From: Protofrankia sp. CiT1 | GTDB lineage: Bacteria; Actinomycetota; Actinomycetes; Frankiales; Frankiaceae | Direction: 5' to 3' | DNA: 41,365 bases | NCBI RefSeq assembly: GCF_917627385.1 | Contig: NZ_CAKJTL010000143.1 | Location: 25,425 to 66,789 of the forward strand | Shown here: piece after piece, positions 7,649 to 37,964 of the stretch | Layout: each line of letters starts with the position of its first letter | Numbering within the stretch: the stretch's first letter is position 1 | Program-made: the position numbers and the translations under genes | The notes under the pieces: generated by a model | The model's input: only the letters and a program-made list of their open reading frames with translations | Told to the model about the DNA's origin: nothing | The model's database searches: none

Positions 7649-8845
7649 CTAACCGCGGACTGCTGCCGCCAGGTTGTCCGCGCGCGATGTCGACTCCCAG
7701 GTGAAGTCGAGCTCCGGACGGCCGAAGTGACCGTAGGCGGCGGTCTGGGTGTAGATGGGCCGCAGCAGGTCCAGGTCCCTGATGATCGCGGCCGGCCGGA
7801 GGTCGAACACGGTCGTCACGGCGTCCTGGATCTGTTCGTCAGGCACTGTGCCGGTGCCGAAGGTCTCGACGAACAGGCCGACCGGCTGTGCCTTGCCGAT
7901 GGCATAGGCCACCTGGACCTCGCAGCGGCGGGCGAGCCCGGCGGCGACCACGTTCTTGGCGACCCAGCGCATCGCGTACGCGGCCGAGCGGTCGACCTTG
8001 GACGGATCCTTGCCGGAGAACGCGCCACCGCCATGACGGGCCATGCCACCATAGGTGTCAACGATGATCTTACGTCCGGTGAGACCGGCGTCTCCCATGG
8101 GACCACCCACCTCGAACCGGCCAGTCGGGTTCACCAGCAACCGGTGCCCCGCCGTGGTGATTTCAAGCGCGGCCAGCTCCGGGGCGACGACATACTCGGC
8201 GATGTCCGGCGCGAGCAGGGTTTCAAGATCAATATCGGCCGCGTGCTGGGTGGAGACGACCACAGTGTCCAGCCGGACCGGGCGACCGGCCGAGTATTCG
8301 ATGGTGACCTGGGTCTTGCCGTCTGGACGCAGGTAGCCGACCTTGCCGTCCTTGCGGACGGCGGCGAGGCGGCGGGCGAGCCGGTGCGCCAGCGCGAGCG
8401 GCATCGGCATCAGCTCAGGCGTCTCGTCACAGGCGAAGCCGAACATCAGTCCCTGGTCGCCGGCACCCTGCCTGTCCAGCTCGTCGTCGCTCGAGCCGCC
8501 GATCCGAGTCTCGTGAGCGGTGTCGACGCCCTGGGCGATATCGGGCGACTGCGAGCCGATCGACACGCTGACGCCGCAGGAAGCGCCGTCAAAACCCTTC
8601 TTGGACGAGTCATAGCCGATCTCGAGAACACGCTCCCGGACAACAGCCGCGATATCCACATAGGTGTCTGTGGTGACCTCGCCCGCGACATGGACCTGAC
8701 CAGTCGTGATCATTGTTTCGACCGCGACGCGGCTGTACGGGTCATCCTTAATCATCGCATCGAGGATGGAGTCACTGATCTGGTCAGCGATCTTGTCCGG
8801 ATGCCCCTCGGTAACGGACTCGGAAGTAAACAGGCGCATCGCCAC
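7649..8845 (-). CDS. metK: S-adenosylmethionine synthase
   Basis: Makes S-adenosylmethionine from ATP and methionine in the cytosol. 398 residues, the usual length. It begins [20 protein letters not shown], the conserved N-terminal ATP-binding motif. The substrate loop and phosphate-binding segment [16 protein letters not shown] are present, as is the DIAQGVD motif. GTG at 8845 is preferred because AGGGGG sits 7 nt upstream; ATG 8839 is two codons inside. The open frame extends further upstream but without family similarity. It is last in the pyrimidine/gmk/rpoZ/coaBC block, 40 bp after coaBC. No SAM riboswitch is visible ahead of it. Confidence 0.97.
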
Positions 8846-8885
8846 GTTCTGACCCCCTGGGAGATCCAGTCGATTCCGACGAAGT

Positions 8886-10196
8886 CTACCGACGGGTACT
8901 GTCGGATACAGCGATAACGGAGCCATCCGCGGGCGCGAGTCGAGCCGTGACCAGGTCGAGCACCCGGTGCGAAAGAAGATCCTTACTGGTTCGTCCGATC
9001 ACCGTCTCGGTGCCGTCCGAGCCGAGCACCACCGCCGCGTTGTCCTCGACCTCGAACCCGAGCCCGTCACCGACCTGATTGACCACGAGCAGGTCGGCTC
9101 CCTTACGGACGAGTTTTTCCCGGCCGAGATCGAGAAGATCAGCCCCTGGCCCGCCGGTCTCCGCGGCAAAACCGACGAGCAGCTGACCCGGCTGGCGCGC
9201 GGCAACCAGTTCGGCCAGGATGTCCGGGTTACGGACCAGCGCGACGGGTTCCGGGTCGCCATCCGATTTCTTGATCTTATGGGCCGCCCGGGTGACGGGC
9301 CGGAAATCGGCGACCGCCGCCGCCATGATGACCACGTGGGCCGTTGCCGCCTCCGCGTGCACGGCGGCCCGCAGCTGCACGGCCGAGACCACTCGGACGG
9401 TGTGGGCTCCGGCCACCTCCGGAAGAGCCACGTTGGCCGCCACCACGACAACCCGCGCGCCCCGGGAGAGCGCCGCTCTGGCCAACGCGTAGCCCTGGCG
9501 ACCGCTTGAGGAGTTGCCGAGGAAACGGACCGGGTCCAGATGCTCGCGAGTACCACCGGCGCTGATCACGAACCGGTACCCGGTCAGGTCCGGCATCAGC
9601 CCGGCTGCCAGGCCCGTACCGTTGGCGTTGGCGGCCGATCCTGCCCGCGCCAGCACCGCCCGCGCCAGCGCCGCGATCTCCGCCGGTGCCGGGAGCCGGC
9701 CAGCCCCGGAGTCCGCGCCGGTCAGCCGGCCGACCGCCGGATCAATGACCACGCAGCCCCGCGCCCGAAGCGTCCCCACATTGGCCCGGGTCGCCGGGTG
9801 CTCCCACATCTCGGTGTGCATCGCCGGCGCGAACACGACCGGACAGCGCGCCGTGAGCAGGGTGGCGGTGAGCAGATCGTCCGCGCGCCCGGTCGCGGCG
9901 CGCGCGAGAAGGTCAGCCGTGGCCGGGACAACCAGGACGAGATCGGCCTCGCGCCCCAGTGACACGTGCGCCACCTCGGCCGCGCCGGCCCACACGCCGG
10001 TCGACACCGGATGGCCGGACAGCGCCGCCCAGGTCGGCTCACCGACGAACCGCAGCGCCGAGTCGGTCGGTACGACCCGGACGTCATGCCCGGATTCGGT
10101 CAGCTGGCGAAGTACCTCGACCGCCTTGTAGGCCGCGATCCCGCCGGCCACCCCCAGCACGACGCGCGGGCGACGCGCGGGCGACGCGGCCGGCAC
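8886..10196 (-). CDS. coaBC: Bifunctional phosphopantothenoylcysteine decarboxylase / phosphopantothenate-cysteine ligase
   Basis: Two steps of coenzyme A synthesis on one chain of 436 residues. The N-terminal flavodoxin-like CoaC half starts [16 protein letters not shown], has the active-site histidine region [12 protein letters not shown], the [12 protein letters not shown] segment and the substrate clamp [12 protein letters not shown]. The C-terminal CoaB half starts near residue 200 with [16 protein letters not shown], then [24 protein letters not shown] and the lysine-containing KIKKSD. The GTG at 10196 starts 24 bp after the rpoZ stop; no strong ribosome site is visible, which suggests coupling to rpoZ. 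Confidence 0.96.
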
Positions 10197-10222
10197 CGGA
10201 GGCGCGCCCGGCTCCAGGCCGC

Positions 10223-10507
10223 TCAGGAGACCGGTGGCAACGGCTCGCTGACGGTCTCATGCGTCAGCAGACCGGCGTTGATCTCACGCAGCGCGATGGA
10301 CAGCGGCTTCTCCTGCGCGCTGGCCGTCTCCACCAGCGGACCGACATACTCCAGCAGGCCCTCGCCCAGCTGCGAGTAGTAGGCGTTGATCTGGCGGGCC
10401 CGCTTCGCGGCGTAGATCACCAAGCTGTACTTGGAGTCGGTCGCCTCCAGGAGCTCGTCGATCGGTGGGTTGGTGATGCCTTCAGGCTGTGCGACAGTGC
10501 CGGACAC
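10223..10507 (-). CDS. rpoZ: RNA polymerase omega subunit
   Basis: 94 residues, typical for actinobacterial omega, which assists folding of the beta' subunit. The sequence [35 protein letters not shown] is followed by [13 protein letters not shown] and [13 protein letters not shown], all hallmarks of the family (quoted in parts under 20: [30 protein letters not shown]). The GTG at 10507 has GGAAGG 5 nt upstream. It lies between gmk and coaBC. The gap to gmk (10508-10684) shows no other gene. Confidence 0.96.
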
Positions 10508-10684
10508 GGTGTCCTTCCGGAAAACGCGGGGGCGGCCAGCTCACGGCGAGCCGCCATCATGATCGGATGTGGCCAGGGCGGTGGAGAACCGGTTGGGCGC
10601 GGTTCGCGGCGGCCCCGTAGGCCTCGGTTCACAACGGTAATGCCCCCAGCGTAGAACAGTCCTCCGGCCGCCGGTTGACAGGCG

Positions 10685-11230
10685 TCAGCTCATGGCTGTC
10701 AAGAACACCAGGCGGGCCGCTGCCGCCGTCACGTCGTCGTTGACGACGACCTCGTCGAACTCCGCTTCGGCGGCGAGCTCGATGCGTGCCCGGTCGAGCC
10801 GCCGCCTGATCACTTCCGGCGGCTCCGTGCCCCGGCCGACGAGCCGGCGGACCAGCTCCTCCCAGGATGGCGGGGCGAGGAAGACGAAGCGGGAGCCGGC
10901 CATCGTCGAACGCACCTGGCGGGCGCCCTGCAGCTCGATCTCCAGCAGGCAGGGCACCCCTTCGGCCAGCCGCGCCTCCAACGGCGCGCGCGGCGTCCCG
11001 TACGCATGCCCCGCGAACATCGCATGCTCCAGCAGCTCGCCTGTCTTGACCATTAACGCGAACTCCTCGGCGTCGACAAAGCGATACTCCACCCCCTCGG
11101 TCTCACCCGGCCGGGGGGCGCGTGTCGTACAGCTGACCGAAACCCAGACCTCAGGATGACGCCGGCGCACCTCGGCGACGACGGTTCCCTTCCCGACGCC
11201 CGAGGGGCCAGACAGAACAGTGAGCCGCAT
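10685..11230 (-). CDS. gmk: Guanylate kinase
   Basis: Phosphorylates GMP to GDP. 181 residues, slightly short for the family because there is almost no N-terminal extension. P-loop GPSGVGKGT lies at residues 7-15. The GMP-binding segment [13 protein letters not shown]...GVEYRFVD follows, then [12 protein letters not shown] and the C-terminal [14 protein letters not shown] 11230 has AAGGTG 5 nt upstream; an in-frame GTG lies at 11236. Most of that ribosome site lies at the end of the MITE copy at 11243-11404 and its target site, so the insertion touches the translation start. Normally mihF lies directly upstream, but here about 510 bp separate them. Confidence 0.95.
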
Positions 11231-11239
11231 CAACACACC

Positions 11240-11407
11240 TTAGAGCGCCCGAGGATAGGACTGTCCGGCTCGCGGCTCCCCGCATCCCGCCCGGCCACGT
11301 TGTCGTCAGTCGGCGCCCAGTCCCAGGGCGCCTTCCTCCGCCGTCTTGCCGGATCGGGCGCGGATGAGCCGCTCACTGATCGAACGCCCTATCCTCGGGC
11401 GCTCTTA
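11240..11407. mobile_element. 162-bp MITE-like element (copy 2) with TTA target duplication
   Basis: Element 11243-11404 has perfect 17-bp terminal inverted repeats GAGCGCCCGAGGATAGG and is flanked by TTA at 11240-11242 and 11405-11407, within CTTAG on both sides. It has no coding capacity. The interior shares CGTTGTCGTCAG (11298-11309) and CAGGGC..TCCTCCGCC (11324-11342) with the 161-bp copy at 34766, although that copy has different terminal repeats. It is inserted between mihF and gmk. Confidence 0.85.
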
Positions 11408-11743
11408 GTCATCCTCAAGGCCTCCGAGCATGCGAAAAAAACAAGATCACATACTCTTTGGCCGCCGGTGTCGTGGCCAAAGGGCGCACGCCTACGCACT
11501 TTCACACCGCCGAAGCCCCGATCGTCACCGGCGCTTCCATCGGGTGCCCTGTCGAGTTGGTTGACTTACCTGGTTAGTCAGGCCATCCATGATGGGGTTC
11601 TTCCTGAACTGTGCACCCCAGCCAAAGGCCGGAAAACAGCCGGTACGGCGGCCCGGCGGCGCGAGGTTCCACCATTACCGGGACACCGCACCGAACCCAC
11701 GACGGAGGATGTGCGGCACACCCTCGCCGAACGCTGGCAGTGC
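11408..11743. other. Intergenic stretch without recognisable gene
   Basis: 336 bp between the MITE and the mihF stop. Open frames here are short shadows without family similarity. It has a patch of low GC (GAAAAAAACAAGATC near 11430) and a weak inverted repeat TTGACT...AGTCA near 11562. It may be the mihF 3' trailer plus remnant DNA. Confidence 0.5.
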
Positions 11744-12061
11744 TCAGGAGCTGGTGAACTCCTGAACCAGCGCGGCACGCTGTTTGGCGCCAAGGCCTCG
11801 CAGCCGACGGCTGTCGCTGATCGCGAGCCGCTCCATGATCCTGGTGGCGCGGACACGACCGACGCCGGGCAGGGATTCGAGAACAGCAGCCACCTTCATC
11901 TTTCCAATGACCTCATCGGTGTTGGCTCTCTCAAGGACGGACGCGAGTGACACTTCCGCCTTCTTGAGCCGCTCCTTGAGTTCTGCACGCTGCTTACGCG
12001 CCAACGCAGCTTTCTCGAGGGCAGCAGCCCTCTGCTCGGGCGTCAGGGGCGGCAGGGGCAC
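11744..12061 (-). CDS. mihF: Integration host factor, actinobacterial type (mIHF)
   Basis: 105 residues. A nucleoid-associated DNA-binding protein of the actinobacterial family that is unrelated to enteric IHF. It has the N-terminal helix LTPEQRAAALEKAALARKQ and then the helix-two-turn-helix region with LESLPGVGRVRATRIMERL, followed by RRLRGLGAKQRAAL. GTG 12061 is firmly set by AAGGAGG 7 nt upstream. It sits between pyrF and gmk, as in Mycobacterium and Streptomyces. It could also serve the nearby integrative element, since mIHF was first found as a phage integration cofactor; that link is an inference. Confidence 0.95.
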   Translation of the reverse strand: MPLPPLTPEQRAAALEKAALARKQRAELKERLKKAEVSLASVLERANTDEVIGKMKVAAVLESLPGVGRVRATRIMERLAISDSRRLRGLGAKQRAALVQEFTSS

Positions 12062-12284
12062 GGGTACGCCTCCTTCTTTCGGGTGATCGCGGCGCCGCGC
12101 AAACTAGCGAGTAACGGGCGTCTCGGTCCAGTCGGTAGCACGGGTACATCCACGGACTATTGTCCACAAGACCGTGCCCGGATGTCCGGATGAATCGCGT
12201 TGCCCGCGCCGTACTGTTTGCTTTCGGTCGCTCGCGGACCCACCGTACCGGGCAGATCGCCTCGAGATGTCCCAACCGGGGCCT

Positions 12285-12298
12285 GTGTGACGTCACAC
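12285..12298. promoter_or_regulatory. 14-bp perfect palindrome between pyrF and mihF
   Basis: GTGTGACGTCACAC is fully self-complementary. It contains TGTGA and TCACA, the Crp half-sites, but spaced by only 2 bp instead of 6, so it is not a standard Crp site. It lies 25 bp past the pyrF stop and about 225 bp upstream of mihF. The gap 12062-12322 otherwise holds only the mihF leader. Confidence 0.4.
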
Positions 12299-12322
12299 CA
12301 GGTCAGCGGCACCGTGACGGTG

Positions 12323-13069
12323 TCAACTACCGGTCACAAACCGAGCCGCGGCAGCCCCTGGATCACTCGATGTAATGATCGGGCGCCCCACCACAAGAAG
12401 GTCGGAACCCGCTCCCAGCGCCGCCGCGGGCGTTGCGATACGCGCCTGATCGTCGAGATTCATGCCTTGCGCTCGAACTCCAGGAGTGATAAGAGTCACA
12501 CCGTTTCCGACCTCCGCGCGCACCCCTGACACCTCACGCGGGCTGCACACCACGGCCCGCGCGCCAGCGGCGACAGCCAGTGCCGCAAGGCGGCGGACGA
12601 CGTCGGCGGGCGGCTCGCCGTAGCCGGCCGAGGCGAGGTCGGCAGCGCCCAGGGAGGTCAGCACGGTGACCGCGGCGACCTCGACATCCGGCGCGGCGTC
12701 AACGGCCGCCCGCACCATCGCCGCGCCTCCGGCCGCATGCACGGTTACGTACCGGGGGGCGAGCGGAGCTACTGACCGCATCGCCCCAGCCACCGTGTGG
12801 GGGATATCATGCAGCTTGAGGTCGAGGAAAAGACCGATCCGGTCCCGTTCGGCCGGCCCTGGATCACCCCCGACCACGTCCCACAGGGCGGTCACGATGC
12901 CGGGTCCCTCACGGCAGAACAGTTCCAGACCGACTTTCACAACGGCGACGTGCGGTGCCACCGCGCGGGCCAGCCGCAGCGCCCGCGGCCCGTCGGGCAC
13001 GTCCAGCGCGACCGCCAGCGGCGGCCGCGACGTCCAAGCGGCCAGTCGCGCCCCCGGCAGACCCGTCAT
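12323..13069 (-). CDS. pyrF: Orotidine 5'-phosphate decarboxylase, type 1
   Basis: Last step of UMP synthesis. About 248 residues. The catalytic motif reads LFLDLKLHDIPHTV at about residues 75-88, the type 1 form; Streptomyces and Mycobacterium enzymes are type 2 with DAKRGDI. It also has PLAVALDVPDG near the start, TPGVRAQG, and the phosphate-binding VGRPIITSSDP near the end. ATG 13069 is preceded by GGAGG at 7 nt. The open frame continues upstream into carB but is low-complexity. It follows carB by 43 bp in the pyr operon. Confidence 0.94.
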   Translation of the reverse strand: MTGLPGARLAAWTSRPPLAVALDVPDGPRALRLARAVAPHVAVVKVGLELFCREGPGIVTALWDVVGGDPGPAERDRIGLFLDLKLHDIPHTVAGAMRSVAPLAPRYVTVHAAGGAAMVRAAVDAAPDVEVAAVTVLTSLGAADLASAGYGEPPADVVRRLAALAVAAGARAVVCSPREVSGVRAEVGNGVTLITPGVRAQGMNLDDQARIATPAAALGAGSDLLVVGRPIITSSDPGAAAARFVTGS

Positions 13070-28296: not shown

Positions 28297-29306
28297 GGGG
28301 GTGGCCCGCCGCCGGGCGCGGCCGACACCGATGCCGACACCGACACCGACACCGACACCGATGCCGGCATAGCGGGCGGCGGCGAAGATGGCGCCGACCG
28401 CGCCGACCGCGCCGACCGCGCCGCCAGCGCCCGCCGGCCCGCGTCGAGGAGCAGGCCCACCTCCACCTCGGCCCCGGTGAAGAGCCGGACCTGCCCCACC
28501 GCCTGGGCCGCGAGCACGACCAGGCCGCCGGCCAACGCCGCTCCGGCGGCCTGCGCACGGGCGGCCAGCCGGGTGGGCCACGGGTGGTACAGCAGCTCGA
28601 CCAGCGCCGTCGAGGAGGGCCACGCCCGCTGGGCCAGGTCATCGGTCGCGCCGGCCGGAGTGGTCGCAAGGACGATGTCGGCGTCCGCGAGCGAACCCAG
28701 CCCGCCCGGACACGTGCGCACACCCGGACCCGACGCCCCCCACCGGTGGACCGTGACGCCAAGCCCGAGCGCGCCACCGAGGTCGACCAGGGGCGCCGCC
28801 GCCGCCGGCCGGCGGGCGACCAGGTCCACCCGGGTGGCACCGAGCTGGGCCAACGCGCCGAGGGCGGCCCGAGCGGTTCCCCCCGCACCGAGAATCAGGG
28901 GGCTGCTCGGCGCCACGCCGTCACCGAGAACCTGGGTGACGGCGTGGGCGATGCCCATGACATCGGTGTTGAACCCGGCCAGCCGCACCGGTGTGCCGGC
29001 GGCCGCGGTAGCGGCTGGGTCCTGGCGGACGACAACGGTGTTGGCCGCGCCGAGAAGCGCCGCGGTGGCATCGAGCGTGTCGAGCAGCCCCAGGACGGCC
29101 GTCTTCAGCGGCATGGTGAGCGACAGGCCCACCCAGCCCGGCTCCGTGCGCACCCGGTGGAGCGCCTGCGCCAGCGCGCCCTCGTCACACTCGACGGCCG
29201 GGTAGTCCCAGTCGAGCCCGAGCTCGGCATAAGCGGCCGCGTGCATAACCGGTGACAGCGAATGAGCGACCGGCATGCCAAGAACGGCGGCCCGCCGACG
29301 GGTCAC
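28293..29306 (-). CDS. aroE: Shikimate dehydrogenase (NADP-dependent)
   Basis: About 337 residues; the family norm is near 280. The N-terminal substrate domain has GMPVAHSLSPVMHAAAY and LSLTMPLKTAVL, with the catalytic lysine. The Rossmann motif is LGAGGTARAALGAL; LAGFNTDVMG is also present. The extra 40-50 C-terminal residues are repeat-coded (ARSARSARSA, then alternating Ser-Val) and look disordered. GTG 29306 overlaps the mltG stop (GTGA). Confidence 0.95.
   Translation of the reverse strand: MTRRRAAVLGMPVAHSLSPVMHAAAYAELGLDWDYPAVECDEGALAQALHRVRTEPGWVGLSLTMPLKTAVLGLLDTLDATAALLGAANTVVVRQDPAATAAAGTPVRLAGFNTDVMGIAHAVTQVLGDGVAPSSPLILGAGGTARAALGALAQLGATRVDLVARRPAAAAPLVDLGGALGLGVTVHRWGASGPGVRTCPGGLGSLADADIVLATTPAGATDDLAQRAWPSSTALVELLYHPWPTRLAARAQAAGAALAGGLVVLAAQAVGQVRLFTGAEVEVGLLLDAGRRALAARSARSARSAPSSPPPAMPASVSVSVSVSASVSAAPGGGPPP
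28322..28427. repeat. 6-bp and 9-bp microsatellites at the aroE 3' end
   Basis: Nine 6-bp units of CCGACA (variants CCGATG and CCGGCA) fill 28322-28375, and three 9-bp units of GCGCCGACC plus a partial fourth lie at 28392-28427. In aroE they encode Ser-Val dipeptides and Ala-Arg-Ser tripeptides. They end about 25 bp before the prepilin-peptidase start. Unit changes keep both frames. Confidence 0.9.
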
Positions 29307-30472
29307 GACCCGCCCTCGGAACGGTAGCGGGTGAGCGCCTCCTGCCACTCCTTGTCCGTGGTGGCGAAAATCGTCACATTCGACTTCGGCAGCGACACGA
29401 AGTACATCCATGGCCCCGCGGCCGGATGCAGCGCGGACTCCAGCGCCCACCTGCCGGGGTTGGCGATGGCACCGGGAGGCAGACCGGCCACCTTGCGGGT
29501 GTTGTAGGGGTTGTTGGCGTTCAGCTGCCCCTGCGTCAGCGGGCCCTCGTACTCGTCGAGCGCGTACCGGGTGGTCGAGTCGAGATCCAGGCGGCGGAAG
29601 GCACCGGAGGTGTCAGCGAGCCGGTTGTAGATGACCCGCGCGACCTTCGGCCCCTCATCGGGGTTTTTCACCTCACGCTCGATGATGGACGCGACAGTGA
29701 TGATGTCCTGCGGAGTACGGCCCAGCGCGGCCGCGCCGGCCGGGATGTCGAGCGACGCGGTCTCCGCCTTGAAGCGGTCGACGAACATCTTGACGGTGAC
29801 CGCCAGGGACGCGCCTGGCTGCAGGTCGTAGGTGAACGGGTACAGATAGCCCTCAACCCCGCTGGCATACGGCGGGAGCTGGAGCTCGCCCGGGTTCTTC
29901 ACGACGGCCTCCAGGGCCGAAAGCGGCTGGCCGGTACGGTCCGCGAGTGCCGTGAGCACCTGCCGGGTGGTCATGCCCTCGGCGATGGTGAGCCGGAACA
30001 GCGCGTGTGACCTGGCATCGAGCAGCGCGGTGAGCGCGTCGACCGCGCGCAGCCGCTGCTTGACCTTGTAGAAACCGGGCTGGATCGACCGTGAGCGCTC
30101 ATCGGCCGCGGCCGCGTTGACGAAGGCAGCCGGGGTCCGCACGACATCCGCCGACGCCAGCACCCGCGCGATATCACGGGCGGTCGACCCGGCCTGGATC
30201 TGGATGATGACCGAGCCGTCACCTGGTCCGGCGTAGTCAGCGGCCGACTCGCCCTTCGCGATGCGCCCGATCACCTTCCCCGCGCCGTAAATTCCGCCAC
30301 CGAGCATTCCGGCTACAACGACCAGGATCGCGATAAGCTTCGGAACGGCGGCAGGTCGTCGCCGGCCGGCCCGGTTGCGCCTGCCGCGGTGACGGTTGTT
30401 CGACCCGACGCCGCTGGGCGCACCGCCGTTCGGCGCGTCGCCCAGCAACTCGTCGAGATCGTCGCTGATCAC
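29303..30472 (-). CDS. mltG: Endolytic murein transglycosylase MltG
   Basis: 389 residues. Cleaves nascent peptidoglycan at the membrane. A basic cytoplasmic N-terminus is followed by one membrane anchor at about 45-63 (LIAILVVVAGMLGGGIYGAG) and a LysM-like region (IIQIQAGSTARDIARVL). The catalytic YceG domain has the essential glutamate in TVASIIEREVKNPDE, plus VARVIYNRL, YNTRKVAGLPPGAIANPG and FVSLP. GTG 30472 overlaps the ruvX stop. Confidence 0.96.
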   Translation of the reverse strand: MISDDLDELLGDAPNGGAPSGVGSNNRHRGRRNRAGRRRPAAVPKLIAILVVVAGMLGGGIYGAGKVIGRIAKGESAADYAGPGDGSVIIQIQAGSTARDIARVLASADVVRTPAAFVNAAAADERSRSIQPGFYKVKQRLRAVDALTALLDARSHALFRLTIAEGMTTRQVLTALADRTGQPLSALEAVVKNPGELQLPPYASGVEGYLYPFTYDLQPGASLAVTVKMFVDRFKAETASLDIPAGAAALGRTPQDIITVASIIEREVKNPDEGPKVARVIYNRLADTSGAFRRLDLDSTTRYALDEYEGPLTQGQLNANNPYNTRKVAGLPPGAIANPGRWALESALHPAAGPWMYFVSLPKSNVTIFATTDKEWQEALTRYRSEGGS

Positions 30473-31020
30473 GTGCTGTCCGCGGAACGGTCCGACCTCG
30501 GTCTCGCAGGGCGTTGGGGTGCGCGCATAGCGCCATCGTCCACCAATGGGCCAGCGGATGGTGGGGATATGGCGTCCGCGCTACCTCCGTCCGGAGGGGC
30601 GTCCAGCACGGACTGCAGGATCTGCACCGCTGCCTCCTGATCAACAACTCCACGACGAGCTCGGGCACGCATGCCACGTTCAGCCATCCGGCGGTGGGCC
30701 ACGACCGTGGTCATCCGCTCGTCGGCGAGCCGTACCGGGACAGGGGCCACCCGCGCCGCGAGAAGATCGGCATAGGCGCGCGCCTGGCGCGCCGCTGGCC
30801 CCTCAGCACCGGACAACCGCGCCGGCAGGCCCACGACGACCGCCACCGCCTGACGATCCCGAATAATAATTGCAAGCTCATCAAGATCGCGGTGTGTTCG
30901 GGGATCGCGCCGTAAGGTCGTCACCGGAAAGGCGAGCCTCGCGTCAGGATCACTGGCGGCGATTCCCACCCGTACGGTGCCCACGTCCACGCCCACCCAC
31001 ACGCCCGTCCGGCGGGTCAC
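30469..31020 (-). CDS. ruvX: Holliday junction resolvase-like protein RuvX (YqgF)
   Basis: 183 residues. RNase H-like fold; implicated in pre-16S rRNA end processing in Escherichia coli. Start motif VGVDVGTVRVGIA with the first catalytic aspartate; VVVGLPARLSG and RLADERMTTVVA with the second acidic site follow, and VDQEAAVQILQSVLD carries the third. The tail of about 40 residues is low complexity. GTG 31020 begins only 40 bp after DUF6167, where alaS is found in other actinobacteria. Confidence 0.93.
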   Translation of the reverse strand: MTRRTGVWVGVDVGTVRVGIAASDPDARLAFPVTTLRRDPRTHRDLDELAIIIRDRQAVAVVVGLPARLSGAEGPAARQARAYADLLAARVAPVPVRLADERMTTVVAHRRMAERGMRARARRGVVDQEAAVQILQSVLDAPPDGGSADAISPPSAGPLVDDGAMRAPQRPARPRSDRSADST

Positions 31021-31059
31021 CGGACGCCCCCGGACCTCCGGGGCTGGGGGCCGCTGAGG

Positions 31060-31326
31060 TCAGCGGAGGTGGGCATCCGGAGCGTCCGGAGAATCCGGGG
31101 CCTCCGGGGCGTCGAGGCCGTCGTCATCGCCGATCCCGAGGGCGTGGCGAAGCTCAACCTCCCGCTCCGCCATGCCCTCCTGGACGTCCGTCACGAACTC
31201 CCGCACCGACTGCGCGAAAGAACCGGCCAGGTGCTGTGGGGTGAGCGTGGACACCGCGCGGGCGGCCCGCCGGACGGTGACAACGCCGGCGGCCGCGCCA
31301 AGGGCGATGTAGAACATCCGGGGCAT
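31060..31326 (-). CDS. DUF6167 family small membrane-associated protein
   Basis: 88 residues. An N-terminal hydrophobic segment (MFYIALGAAAGVVTVRR) precedes a basic amphipathic stretch and then an acidic tail rich in Asp, Ala and Pro. It matches the small conserved gene that lies between DUF948 and alaS in Streptomyces and mycobacteria. Function unknown. It overlaps the previous gene by one base (TAATG). Confidence 0.8.
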   Translation of the reverse strand: MPRMFYIALGAAAGVVTVRRAARAVSTLTPQHLAGSFAQSVREFVTDVQEGMAEREVELRHALGIGDDDGLDAPEAPDSPDAPDAHLR

Positions 31327-31862
31327 TACGCGCTCCTGCTCTCGGCGCCAGCCACCTGCGCAGCAGCCACCCCGGTCACCTGCGCGCCGGGTATCTGGCC
31401 ACCGGTCGCGTCAGCCCGCCGGGCGGTCCGCCGGGACGCGCGGTCAGCCCTGATCTCCGCGGTCACCCGCGACTCGATGTCGGCGCGGGTCCGCTTGGCC
31501 GCCGCCCGCCGGACCCCGTAGGTGAAGGCCGCGACCCGGACGATCGGACCACCGAGCGTCGCCGCGAACAACGACGTGAGCGAGGAGATGTTCGTCGAGA
31601 TCGACTGCACATTCGCCGTGATCGCGTCGACCCGGTCAAGCTCCTTGTTCACGTGGCTGAGGGCAAGGTTCACCTCGTCCACGGTTGTGCCCGCCTGCCG
31701 AACGCGCGCGGTGCCCTCGTCGATGGCAAACCCGGTCTGGCGAACCCGCGCGGCCGCCTCGTCGAAGATCTTCCCAAGCTTGAACAACACGTAGCAGCCG
31801 AACAGGACGAGCACGGAGAACGCCCCCGCCGCGATCAGTCCCGCGATCGCACCACCGGACAT
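31326..31862 (-). CDS. DUF948 domain membrane protein
   Basis: 178 residues. One N-terminal transmembrane helix (LIAAGAFSVLVLFGCYVLF) is followed by a long amphipathic helical region with heptad character (about 30-100). The second half is basic, and the C-terminus is Ala/Gly-rich. The family is conserved in Gram-positive bacteria; its role is unknown. ATG 31862 has GGAGG-like sequence upstream. rpsD, often found between this gene and the rarA-like gene, is absent; the 107-bp gap holds no gene. Confidence 0.85.
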   Translation of the reverse strand: MSGGAIAGLIAAGAFSVLVLFGCYVLFKLGKIFDEAAARVRQTGFAIDEGTARVRQAGTTVDEVNLALSHVNKELDRVDAITANVQSISTNISSLTSLFAATLGGPIVRVAAFTYGVRRAAAKRTRADIESRVTAEIRADRASRRTARRADATGGQIPGAQVTGVAAAQVAGAESRSA

Positions 31863-31969: not shown

Positions 31970-33376
31970 CTACCGAGCGCGACCGGCTTCGTGGCCACTC
32001 GCCCCTGCCGGCTCGTCCACATCGCCGTGGGCGCCGGTCGGATGACCGGCGCCCCGCAGAGTGGCGCGCAGGAACGCCAGCCGCTGCGAGGCACGCGACT
32101 CGAACCCGTTCGCGCCCGGCTGGTAGTAGTCGCGGCCCACCAGCGGGTCAGGCGCATACTGCTGGCCGACCACGCCGCCCGGGTGGTCGTGGGGGTACCG
32201 GTAGCCGCCACCATGGCCGAGCCGGCCCGCGCCCGGGTAGTGCGCGTCGCGGAGATGGGCCGGTACGGGACCGGCACGCCCCGCCCGGACATCGGCGATG
32301 GCCGCGTCGACGGCCCGGATCACCGCGTTGGACTTCGGCGCCAGCGCAAGATGGATCACCGCCTGAGCCAGCGCGAGCCGCGCCTCAGGCAGGCCCACCA
32401 GCTCCAGGGCCTGTGCCGCCGCCACCGTCACGCCCAGCGCGCCCGGCTCAGCGAGCCCGACGTCTTCACTGGCCAGTATGATCATTCTCCGGGCGATGAA
32501 GCGAGGGTCCTCCCCCGCTTCCAGCATCCGGGCCAGATAGTGCAGGGCGGCGTCGGCGTCCCCGCCGCGGATGGACTTGATGAACGCGCTTGCCACGTCG
32601 TAGTGCTGGTCACCGGCCCGGTCATAGCGGACCGCGGCCCGATTCACGGCCTGTTCAACGGTCGCGAGATCAACGCGCGCCGGCGCATCCGCTCCGGCTG
32701 TCCCGACCACCGCGTCACCGGCGGCCTGTAACACGGTCAGGGCACGCCGGGCATCGCCGCCGGCCAGGCGCAACACATGATCAACCGCGTCGTCGTCCAA
32801 CGCCAGCCGGCCGCCGTAGCCGCGAGGGTCCGCGAGCGCCCGACTGATCAGAGTGCGGAGGTCGTCATCGGTGAGCGGCTCCAGCGTGAGCAGCAACGAC
32901 CGGGACAGCAACGGTGCCACCACCGCGAAAAACGGATTCTCGGTGGTGGCCGCGACGAGCGTGACCAGGCCGTTCTCCACCGCGGGCAGCAGCGCGTCCT
33001 GCTGGGTCCTGGTGAAACGGTGCACCTCGTCGATGAACAGCACCGTGCGGGCGCCGGAAACCGCGAGCGTGTCACGCGCCTCGTCGATCGCCGCCCGGAC
33101 ATCCTTCACACCGGCCGTGACGGCCGACAGCTCACGGAAACGACGTTGACCTGAACCCGCTATGACGTGGGCCAGGGTTGTCTTGCCGGTACCAGGCGGC
33201 CCCCACAGCAGGACCGAGGTGGTACCGCCGCCCTCCACCAGCCGCCGCAGCGGGCTGCCCGCCGCGAGCAAGTGCCGCTGCCCGACAACGTCGTCGAGCG
33301 TGCGGGGCCGCAGCCGGGCCGCGAGCGGGCCCGACGTCGCGAGGGCCCGCTCGAGCCCGGCATCGAACAGGTTCAC
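31970..33376 (-). CDS. rarA: Replication-associated recombination protein A (RarA/MgsA AAA ATPase)
   Basis: About 468 residues. Clamp-loader-like ATPase acting at stalled forks. It begins [27 protein letters not shown] and Walker [11 protein letters not shown] follow, Walker B is [10 protein letters not shown], sensor 1 is AATTENPFF, and sensor 2 is [11 protein letters not shown]. The C-terminal tetramerisation domain has [15 protein letters not shown] and [18 protein letters not shown] 33376 is chosen by homology; the frame is open 120 codons further without similarity. The gene is first in this minus-strand run. Confidence 0.95.
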
Positions 33377-33438
33377 CGACCTACCGTATGACCGCCCGTA
33401 CGGACCTCCGGCCGCCGGTTGCTCCTGGGCCCGCGTTC

Positions 33439-34410
33439 CTACCGCCGCGTGGCATGACCGCGCCGGTGTCCCTGGCGCCCGGGGTCGCCAGCCTGGCCGA
33501 ACACGTCCGCGGTCTGGGCCCCGATGGTCAGGACCGGTGCGGCCCGGCCGGCCGGTGCAGCCGGCCCGAACGCACCCGAGCCGGCTGCCGTGCCGGGCTT
33601 CCCGCTCATGTCGGGCTTCCCGCCGAGGCTGGCCGTCTGGTCGTGGGCGTGAGCCGCGCGGGTGAAGACGTCTGTCTCGCTGACCCCGCCCAGGGCCGCG
33701 AAGATGACCAGCGCCAGGATGGAGAAGGTCAGGACGCACACGACGAGGCTCAAGGTGATCGGATCAACGCCACCACTCGGCTCGGACGCCCCGGATATGC
33801 CTGTGACCTGGGTAGCGGCCATGCCCGTGTAGTGCATCCCGCAGACGGCTGTGGCCATCACCACCGACGCGACCAACACGTGGCTGCGGCTACGTACCCG
33901 AAAGGTGATCCACAGCGCGGCCAGTGCCGCGAGCACGGCTATGACGACCGAGATCGCGACAAGCTTCGTGTCATACGTGACGGTGCCGCCGGTCCGCATC
34001 GCGGCCATGCCTGTGTAGTGCATTGCCGCGACGCCGAGACCGGCAATGAGCCCGCCGGCCCCCAGACGCGTCACGCTGTGGGGATTCGTTCCGACAAGCA
34101 CCAGGCCGATGCCCGATACCGCCACCGCGATAACGAGCGACAGCGCGGTGAGGCCTATATCGTAGGTGATGTCCATACCGTCGATGTGATATGCGACCAT
34201 ACCCATGAAATGCATCGCCCAGATCGCACCGCCACCAAGCGACAAAGCTGCCGACAGGACCCAGCGCAGCCGGGTGGCAGCCCCGCTCAGAGGAATACGT
34301 AACGCGCTGACCAGCGCGGCGAACGACCCCACCGTTGCCAACGCGACGGACACACCGACGAAAAGCAGATCATAGTCGGCCGCGTGGCGTGTTGCCGTCG
34401 TAAGATCCAT
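33439..34410 (-). CDS. MHYT domain integral membrane sensor
   Basis: 323 residues. Seven hydrophobic helices contain three MHYT motifs: MHFMGM near residue 66, MHYTGM near 130 and MHYTGM near 192. The His/Met pairs are proposed to bind copper and sense O2, CO or NO. There is no output domain; the C-terminal 80 residues are soluble and Gly/Ala/Pro-rich. ATG 34410 follows GAGGGG at 7 nt. Monocistronic; the upstream region 34411-34762 is relatively AT-rich near the start and probably carries its promoter. No other gene is seen there. Confidence 0.9.
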
Positions 34411-35588: not shown

Positions 35589-35661
35589 TCCCGCGTAGCT
35601 CAATTGGCAGAGCGTCCGGCTGTTAACCGGCAGGTTACAGGTTCGAGTCCTGTCGCGGGAG
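35589..35661 (+). tRNA. tRNA-Asn (anticodon GTT)
   Basis: Complete cloverleaf. Acceptor stem TCCCGCG (35589-35595) pairs with CGCGGGA (35654-35660); D arm GCTC...GAGC; anticodon stem CCGG/CCGG with loop CTGTTAA and anticodon GTT at 35622-35624; T arm ACAGG TTCGAGT CCTGT; discriminator G. The 3' CCA is not encoded. No integrase is next to this tRNA. Confidence 0.95.
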
Positions 35662-37890: not shown

Positions 37891-37964
37891 GGGGCGGTAG
37901 CTCAGTCGGTTAGAGCAGCGGACTCATAATCCGTCGGTCGTGGGTTCGAGTCCCACCCGCCCCA
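37891..37964 (+). tRNA. tRNA with CAT anticodon, probably elongator tRNA-Met
   Basis: Complete cloverleaf. Acceptor GGGGCGG (37891-37897) pairs with CCGCCCC (37957-37963), discriminator A 37964. D arm GCTC...GAGC; anticodon loop CTCATAA with CAT at 37925-37927; T arm GTGGG TTCGAGT CCCAC. CCA not encoded. It has a paired first acceptor base and lacks the GGG/CCC initiator anticodon stem, so it is elongator Met or lysidine-modified Ile2. The integrase gene ends 18 bp downstream and points toward it, so the tRNA 3' half is the likely attachment site. Confidence 0.93.

Follow-up and report, generated by a model that had tools for sequence, protein, structure and literature searches.

The alaS of Protofrankia appears to be a Streptomycetales-type gene that replaced the native copy beside ruvX

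Where is the gene for alanyl-tRNA synthetase (AlaRS) in Protofrankia sp. CiT1, given that it is missing from its usual place beside ruvX, and is the alaS that the genome now carries the same gene at another site? In the window, by which we mean the whole stretch of 41,365 nucleotides that was analysed, rarA, DUF948, DUF6167, ruvX and mltG follow each other on the minus strand (Table 1). This is the order conserved in relatives, rarA-DUF948-DUF6167-(alaS)-ruvX-mltG, with alaS absent between DUF6167 and ruvX. The preliminary description had noted this absence and put the gap at 40 bp; by ORF coordinates it is 39 bp, and no alaS lies inside it. It had also reasoned that the essential gene must lie elsewhere and that the locus had been rearranged precisely. 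A single full-length alaS is indeed present on another contig and the junction is clean, whereas the idea that the same gene had moved did not hold: the present alaS is by all appearances of Streptomycetales and not of Frankiaceae descent, and thus differs from the gene found at that site in relatives, so that "moved" has to be read as "replaced". Within the window, the true start of rarA probably lies inside its ORF near position 33373, since the conserved part of the protein begins there (NCBIfam matches start at residue 122-123).

Table 1. Coordinates of the features discussed; positions refer to the window unless a contig or region is named.
Feature	Position	Strand	Basis and remarks
mltG (YceG)	29303-30472	-	Pfam YceG 1.8e-67; TIGR00247 above cut-off; overlaps ruvX at its end; last gene of the conserved order on the downstream side
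ruvX (YqgF), Holliday junction resolvase	30469-31020	-	Pfam RuvX 129 bits, 2e-37; TIGR00250 above cut-off; adjoins the former alaS position downstream
DUF6167-ruvX junction	31021-31059		Position of alaS in relatives
DUF6167 gene	31060-31326	-	Pfam DUF6167 31.3 bits (cut-off 27); upstream neighbour of the vacated alaS site
DUF948 gene	31326-31862	-	Pfam DUF948 2.1e-16; one-base overlap with the DUF6167 start
rarA (MgsA-like AAA ATPase) ORF	31970-33739	-	Pfam MgsA_C 6.7e-67
tRNA gene	35589-35661	+	Rfam
tRNA gene	37891-37964	+	Rfam
alaS, present site	C150:8617-11343	-	Sole AlaRS found in the genome; 908 aa, full-length, inside a 36-kb contig
TIR + EAD1 protein and M20 peptidase	L002 2511-5441 (G000:C150)		Near the present alaS
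Second alaS of G507	L275 988-3726 / L284 (G507:C201)		Full-length; family f50

We surveyed the neighbours of alaS and ruvX in 58 genomes, comprising five Protofrankia (G000, the genome of the window, to G004), 30 other Frankiaceae and 23 other members of the class. Outside the genus, the two genes are adjacent on the same contig in 49 of 53 genomes, as counted from the genome listings (28/30 Frankiaceae and 21/23 other class members), and the remaining four (G027, G034, G042 and G049), in which contig ends intervene or the genes were not found, include no counterexample. The arrangement DUF6167-alaS-ruvX that the preliminary description had given for Streptomyces is present in all 16 named Streptomyces loci compared, which form part of a set of 80 loci. 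Inside the genus the adjacency is found in none of the five genomes, four of which are informative (the ruvX region was not found in G003). Since adjacency is seen in 49/53 genomes outside the genus and 0/5 inside it, the missing alaS is not a matter of chance. In the four informative genomes ruvX and alaS are on separate contigs, and in G001, G002 and G004 DUF6167 is followed directly by ruvX across gaps of 51, 48 and 33 bp, respectively, with the ruvX start set by its first codons; the sequence of these gaps has diverged. In the nearest sister genome, G007, a Frankiaceae-type alaS still occupies the place between DUF6167 and ruvX. A tblastn search of the old site in four genomes with four AlaRSs (three from Frankiaceae and the window genome's own) gave no alaS remnant below E 0.1, the best value being 0.18.

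The AlaRS of the window genome contains the aminoacylation, SAD and DHHA1 domains (Pfam), and carries the motifs HSATH (HxxxH) and CGGTH (CxxxH), which we take to be its editing motifs. As judged from these features the enzyme is intact and should perform all alanylation in the cell. A single alaS was likewise found in G001, G002 and G003, and G004 contains pieces of one gene interrupted by runs of N; with an estimated completeness of 100% for the window genome (a 5.02-Mb draft in 191 contigs), and of 81%, 88%, 87% and 92% for G001 to G004, the absence of a native alaS is firm for the window genome only. The 16-residue Gly/Thr/Ala-rich insertion at about residues 470-486 of this AlaRS is absent from two other Protofrankia and from the Streptomyces and Frankia rows compared.

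The neighbours of alaS at its present site are common to all five Protofrankia genomes, with a SulP-carbonic anhydrase fusion on one side and Wzz/ParA and polysaccharide epimerase genes on the other. The nine neighbours scanned in the window genome encode ApbA, TIR+EAD1, M20 peptidase, SulP-carbonic anhydrase, Wzz/ParA, polysaccharide epimerase, DegT aminotransferase, SLT and PucR-type regulator proteins. Neither DUF948, DUF6167, RuvX nor MltG was detected at this site in the five genomes (tblastn, none below E 0.1, best 0.26), and nothing in the regions scanned marks an insertion, be it a mobile element, a tRNA or a flanking gene of the donor. Rfam gave no RNA family at gathering score in the 20 kb around the gene, and the loci scanned for tRNAs contained none. 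Consensus matching gave no sigma-70-type promoter within 8200-12800 of the region around the new alaS (L002). A TACGAT hexamer, which resembles an actinobacterial -10 element, is present upstream of alaS in G000, G002 and G003; the upstream region of G001 consists of N. In Frankia G008 the two genes that flank the Protofrankia alaS lie about 1 Mb apart and there is no clean empty site, so that insertion of the gene is inseparable from rearrangement of the region.

The proteins encoded at the two sites differ in their affinities. When those of the window genome were compared with 16-17 Frankiaceae loci and 15-17 Streptomyces-type loci, the median identities (%) were, respectively, 74.1 and 62.8 for rarA, 78.8 and 35.5 for DUF948, 57.2 and 38.7 for DUF6167, 68.9 and 48.1 for RuvX, and 52.4 and 33.1 for MltG, whereas those for AlaRS were 61.4 and 69.1. 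The AlaRS ranges do not overlap (59.8-62.7 for 17 Frankiaceae loci and 66.1-70.9 for 17 Streptomyces-type loci). In a search of 393 genomes of the class with this AlaRS, the 37 best matches outside the genus all belong to family f18, which we take to be the Streptomyces family (order Streptomycetales), as its genomes sit among named Streptomyces in the trees. In a separate search the best single match is G505, at 75%, a genome that alone represents family f49 and has alaS in the usual place beside ruvX. At 84 diagnostic sites, defined as fixed within three Streptomyces, four Frankiaceae and three Protofrankia rows, Protofrankia agrees with Streptomyces at 48, with Frankia at 21 and with neither at 15. 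In each of the 13 windows along the alignment the identity to Streptomyces is the higher, in two of them by a narrow margin (0.72/0.71 and 0.59/0.56). A mosaic alaS is not supported by this uniform direction, slight as the difference is in those two windows.

Phylogenetic analysis, which the preliminary description had proposed, revealed a conflict between AlaRS and host descent. In a quick AlaRS tree of 54 rows, covering 54 of the 58 genomes (G039, G042, G043 and G049, with partial or missing alaS, were left out), Protofrankia groups with G051, a genome of the Streptomyces family, at 99. In a careful tree of 69 rows it groups with 17 Streptomyces-type rows and one more (support 100/99), and in a quick tree of 42 rows, from which G505 is absent, it is sister to the f18 rows at 99. 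A careful tree of 39 rows, in which more families of the order are represented, joins Protofrankia to G505 (97/96), and f18 and f50 belong with them to a wider group (97/94). With the same 39 rows, a clade of Protofrankia and Frankiaceae AlaRSs is rejected, its log-likelihood being 135 worse (p-AU 1.1e-5); this set consists of 25 of the 69 earlier rows and 14 new ones, and the rows omitted from it include that of G004 (because of runs of N), those of two divergent second copies, and seven Streptomyces-type rows of the 42-row tree. The control tree of rarA, DUF948, RuvX and MltG (quick; 51 of 52 eligible rows, G019 being dropped for too few letters) follows the host, and places four Protofrankia genomes inside Frankiaceae at 100, beside G007 at 94. 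Because the trees, the AU test, most of the diagnostic sites and the 13 alignment windows agree, the Protofrankia alaS seems to derive from Streptomycetales over its full extent. Support for the order of Streptomyces as the source is good; which of its members was the donor is less certain, since f49 is represented by one genome and the nodes inside the order have 88-90% bootstrap. In the same comparisons, the record Microtetraspora glauca NRRL B-3735 (L159) groups inside Streptomyces with its AlaRS and four flanking genes alike, and probably represents a misnamed or contaminated strain.

Three other histories could be imagined for a locus of this kind. The native alaS might have been translocated out of the ruvX operon and then have evolved so fast that it looks foreign, a view with which both the presence of alaS elsewhere and the clean old site agree. 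Fast evolution would, however, lower the identity to everything, whereas the protein is closer to Streptomyces than to Frankiaceae all along its length; moreover, a gene moved within its genome would group with its own family, whereas the AlaRS trees and the AU test join this one to Streptomycetales with strong support and reject the Frankiaceae clade. We regard such a move as very improbable. An error of assembly, in which a collapse or misjoin near 31040 removed alaS from the junction, comes to mind for a draft in this many contigs, and the preliminary description had pointed to that join. The same gene order is present in three other assemblies of the genus, with junctions of diverged sequence, so that collapse in one assembly cannot explain the gap; in addition, alaS is found once and complete within a long contig, and a misjoin cannot produce an alaS of different descent, which together make an artefact extremely unlikely.

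The third possibility is that two alaS genes were present in an early actinobacterial ancestor, and that Protofrankia and Streptomycetales kept one of them and the remaining Frankiaceae the other. Second AlaRS copies in some genomes of the Streptomycetales order are in keeping with such a past. It would, however, require loss of the same copy in all 30 other Frankiaceae, each of which has one alaS above cut-off (those of G027 and G034 are cut by contig ends) and whose AlaRSs fall together in the tree, weakly (45), and the copies that the Protofrankia AlaRS joins adjoin ruvX in the loci examined, with the exception of the second copy of G507. We give this explanation very little chance of being correct.

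We consider it very probable that, instead, the native alaS was displaced by a xenologous gene: a Protofrankia ancestor took up a Streptomycetales alaS at another site, carried it for a time beside the native copy, and then lost the latter. The exchange is dated between the split from G007 and the last common ancestor of Protofrankia, because the neighbours at the new site are shared by all five genomes, while G007 keeps the Frankiaceae-type gene in place. The course of events would have been as follows: (i) alaS, apparently unaccompanied by other genes, passed from a Streptomycetales donor to the common ancestor of Protofrankia; (ii) the gene settled between the SulP-carbonic anhydrase gene and the polysaccharide gene group, away from the ruvX operon, and was presumably transcribed from its own upstream region; (iii) for a time the cell would have contained two AlaRSs; and (iv) the native copy, no longer needed, dropped out of the interval between DUF6167 and ruvX, probably by deletion, and the operon was left unharmed. 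AlaRS recognizes the near-universal G3:U70 pair of tRNA-Ala, and for this reason a foreign enzyme could have charged the host tRNA without a matching tRNA having to come with it. The end state is a junction of 33-51 bp in an otherwise intact gene order. The predicted intermediate state has a counterpart in G507 (family f50), which has an alaS beside ruvX and a further copy on a different contig.

Synthetase replacement as a process is known, and among the titles listed in searches of the open-licence PMC literature none concerned the exchange of alaS in Protofrankia. Replacement of aminoacyl-tRNA synthetases by homeoalleles is described for TyrRS in Bacteria and for ThrRS and SerRS in Archaea (PMC3191353), and the present case resembles it in that a divergent synthetase of identical function displaces the native one. 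It differs in the distance between the partners: homeoalleles are a pair of ancient forms that differ strongly (about 29% identity for ThrRS; PMC3191353), whereas here both enzymes are ordinary actinobacterial AlaRSs with an identity of about 61%. Neither alanyl nor Frankia is mentioned in the main text of that source. Of the two pathways it gives for synthetase homeoalleles, one consists of acquisition, coexistence and native loss, and the other of an exchange in syntenic context, by recombination through the flanking sequences (PMC3191353). The latter does not fit Protofrankia, because the foreign gene lies outside the old place. Compared with the ordinary Frankiaceae alaS between DUF6167 and ruvX, the Protofrankia gene has the same function, as judged by its domains, and differs in descent and place.

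A more specific origin can be considered, in which the gene arrived as the accessory synthetase of a Streptomycetales biosynthetic or resistance locus, was kept because it resisted an AlaRS inhibitor made by competing actinomycetes, and then became the sole housekeeping enzyme. A known example of such an accessory enzyme is AcmD, a second AlaRS encoded in the ascamycin cluster of Streptomyces (PMC12945691, PMC4257720), which is reported to withstand ascamycin better than the canonical enzyme does and to provide self-resistance in the producer (PMC12945691). For AcmD an identity of 44% to a Bacteriovorax protein is given, and Frankia appears in the same source as the origin of best matches to ascamycin cluster genes (PMC4257720). 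AcmD is encoded within a biosynthetic cluster, in addition to a housekeeping AlaRS, whereas the Protofrankia AlaRS is the only one found, and no biosynthetic cluster of the AcmD kind is present among the nine neighbours scanned on C150. The second AlaRS of G507 is nearer to the donor side in the tree (88/90); its gene is convergent with an adjoining lantibiotic-dehydratase C-terminal gene, behind which metallo-hydrolase, methyltransferase and PhyH oxygenase genes follow, and, apart from those named and regulators, 4 of the 12 neighbours scanned are without a Pfam match. This arrangement is suggestive of a possible biosynthetic locus with its own AlaRS. Several Streptomyces-type genomes (L268, L269 and others) contain a second, divergent full-length AlaRS that is 49-57% identical to the window-genome query, and in others the match covers only about the first 400 residues of the query at 38-40%. 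The divergent full-length copies are too distant to have been donors; around one of them, 3 of the 7 ORFs scanned have a Pfam match (AlaRS, ApbA and TauE), none being a biosynthetic enzyme. An accessory biosynthetic alaS as the source of the Protofrankia gene is possible but unsupported, because the neighbours scanned hold no such cluster, and the full sequence of accessory arrival, retention for resistance and promotion to housekeeping enzyme appears unlikely.

For this essential gene of translation, a full replacement can thus be laid out in Protofrankia, together with the likely donor order, the ancestor that received the gene, the two sites, and a sister genome still in the old state. The enzyme is apparently the sole AlaRS of nitrogen-fixing plant symbionts, and its inhibitor sensitivity relative to that of the Frankia enzyme would bear on whether selection or drift was at work. 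The case also cautions against using AlaRS to trace vertical descent within Frankiaceae.

The proteins encoded near the present alaS in the window genome include one with TIR and EAD1 (effector-associated domain) modules and an M20 peptidase. The ORFs lying wholly within about 2600-5800 of L002 have no tblastn match at 1e-15 in regions from the four other Protofrankia genomes, and for that reason this stretch is probably a strain-specific insertion of a defence-like character.
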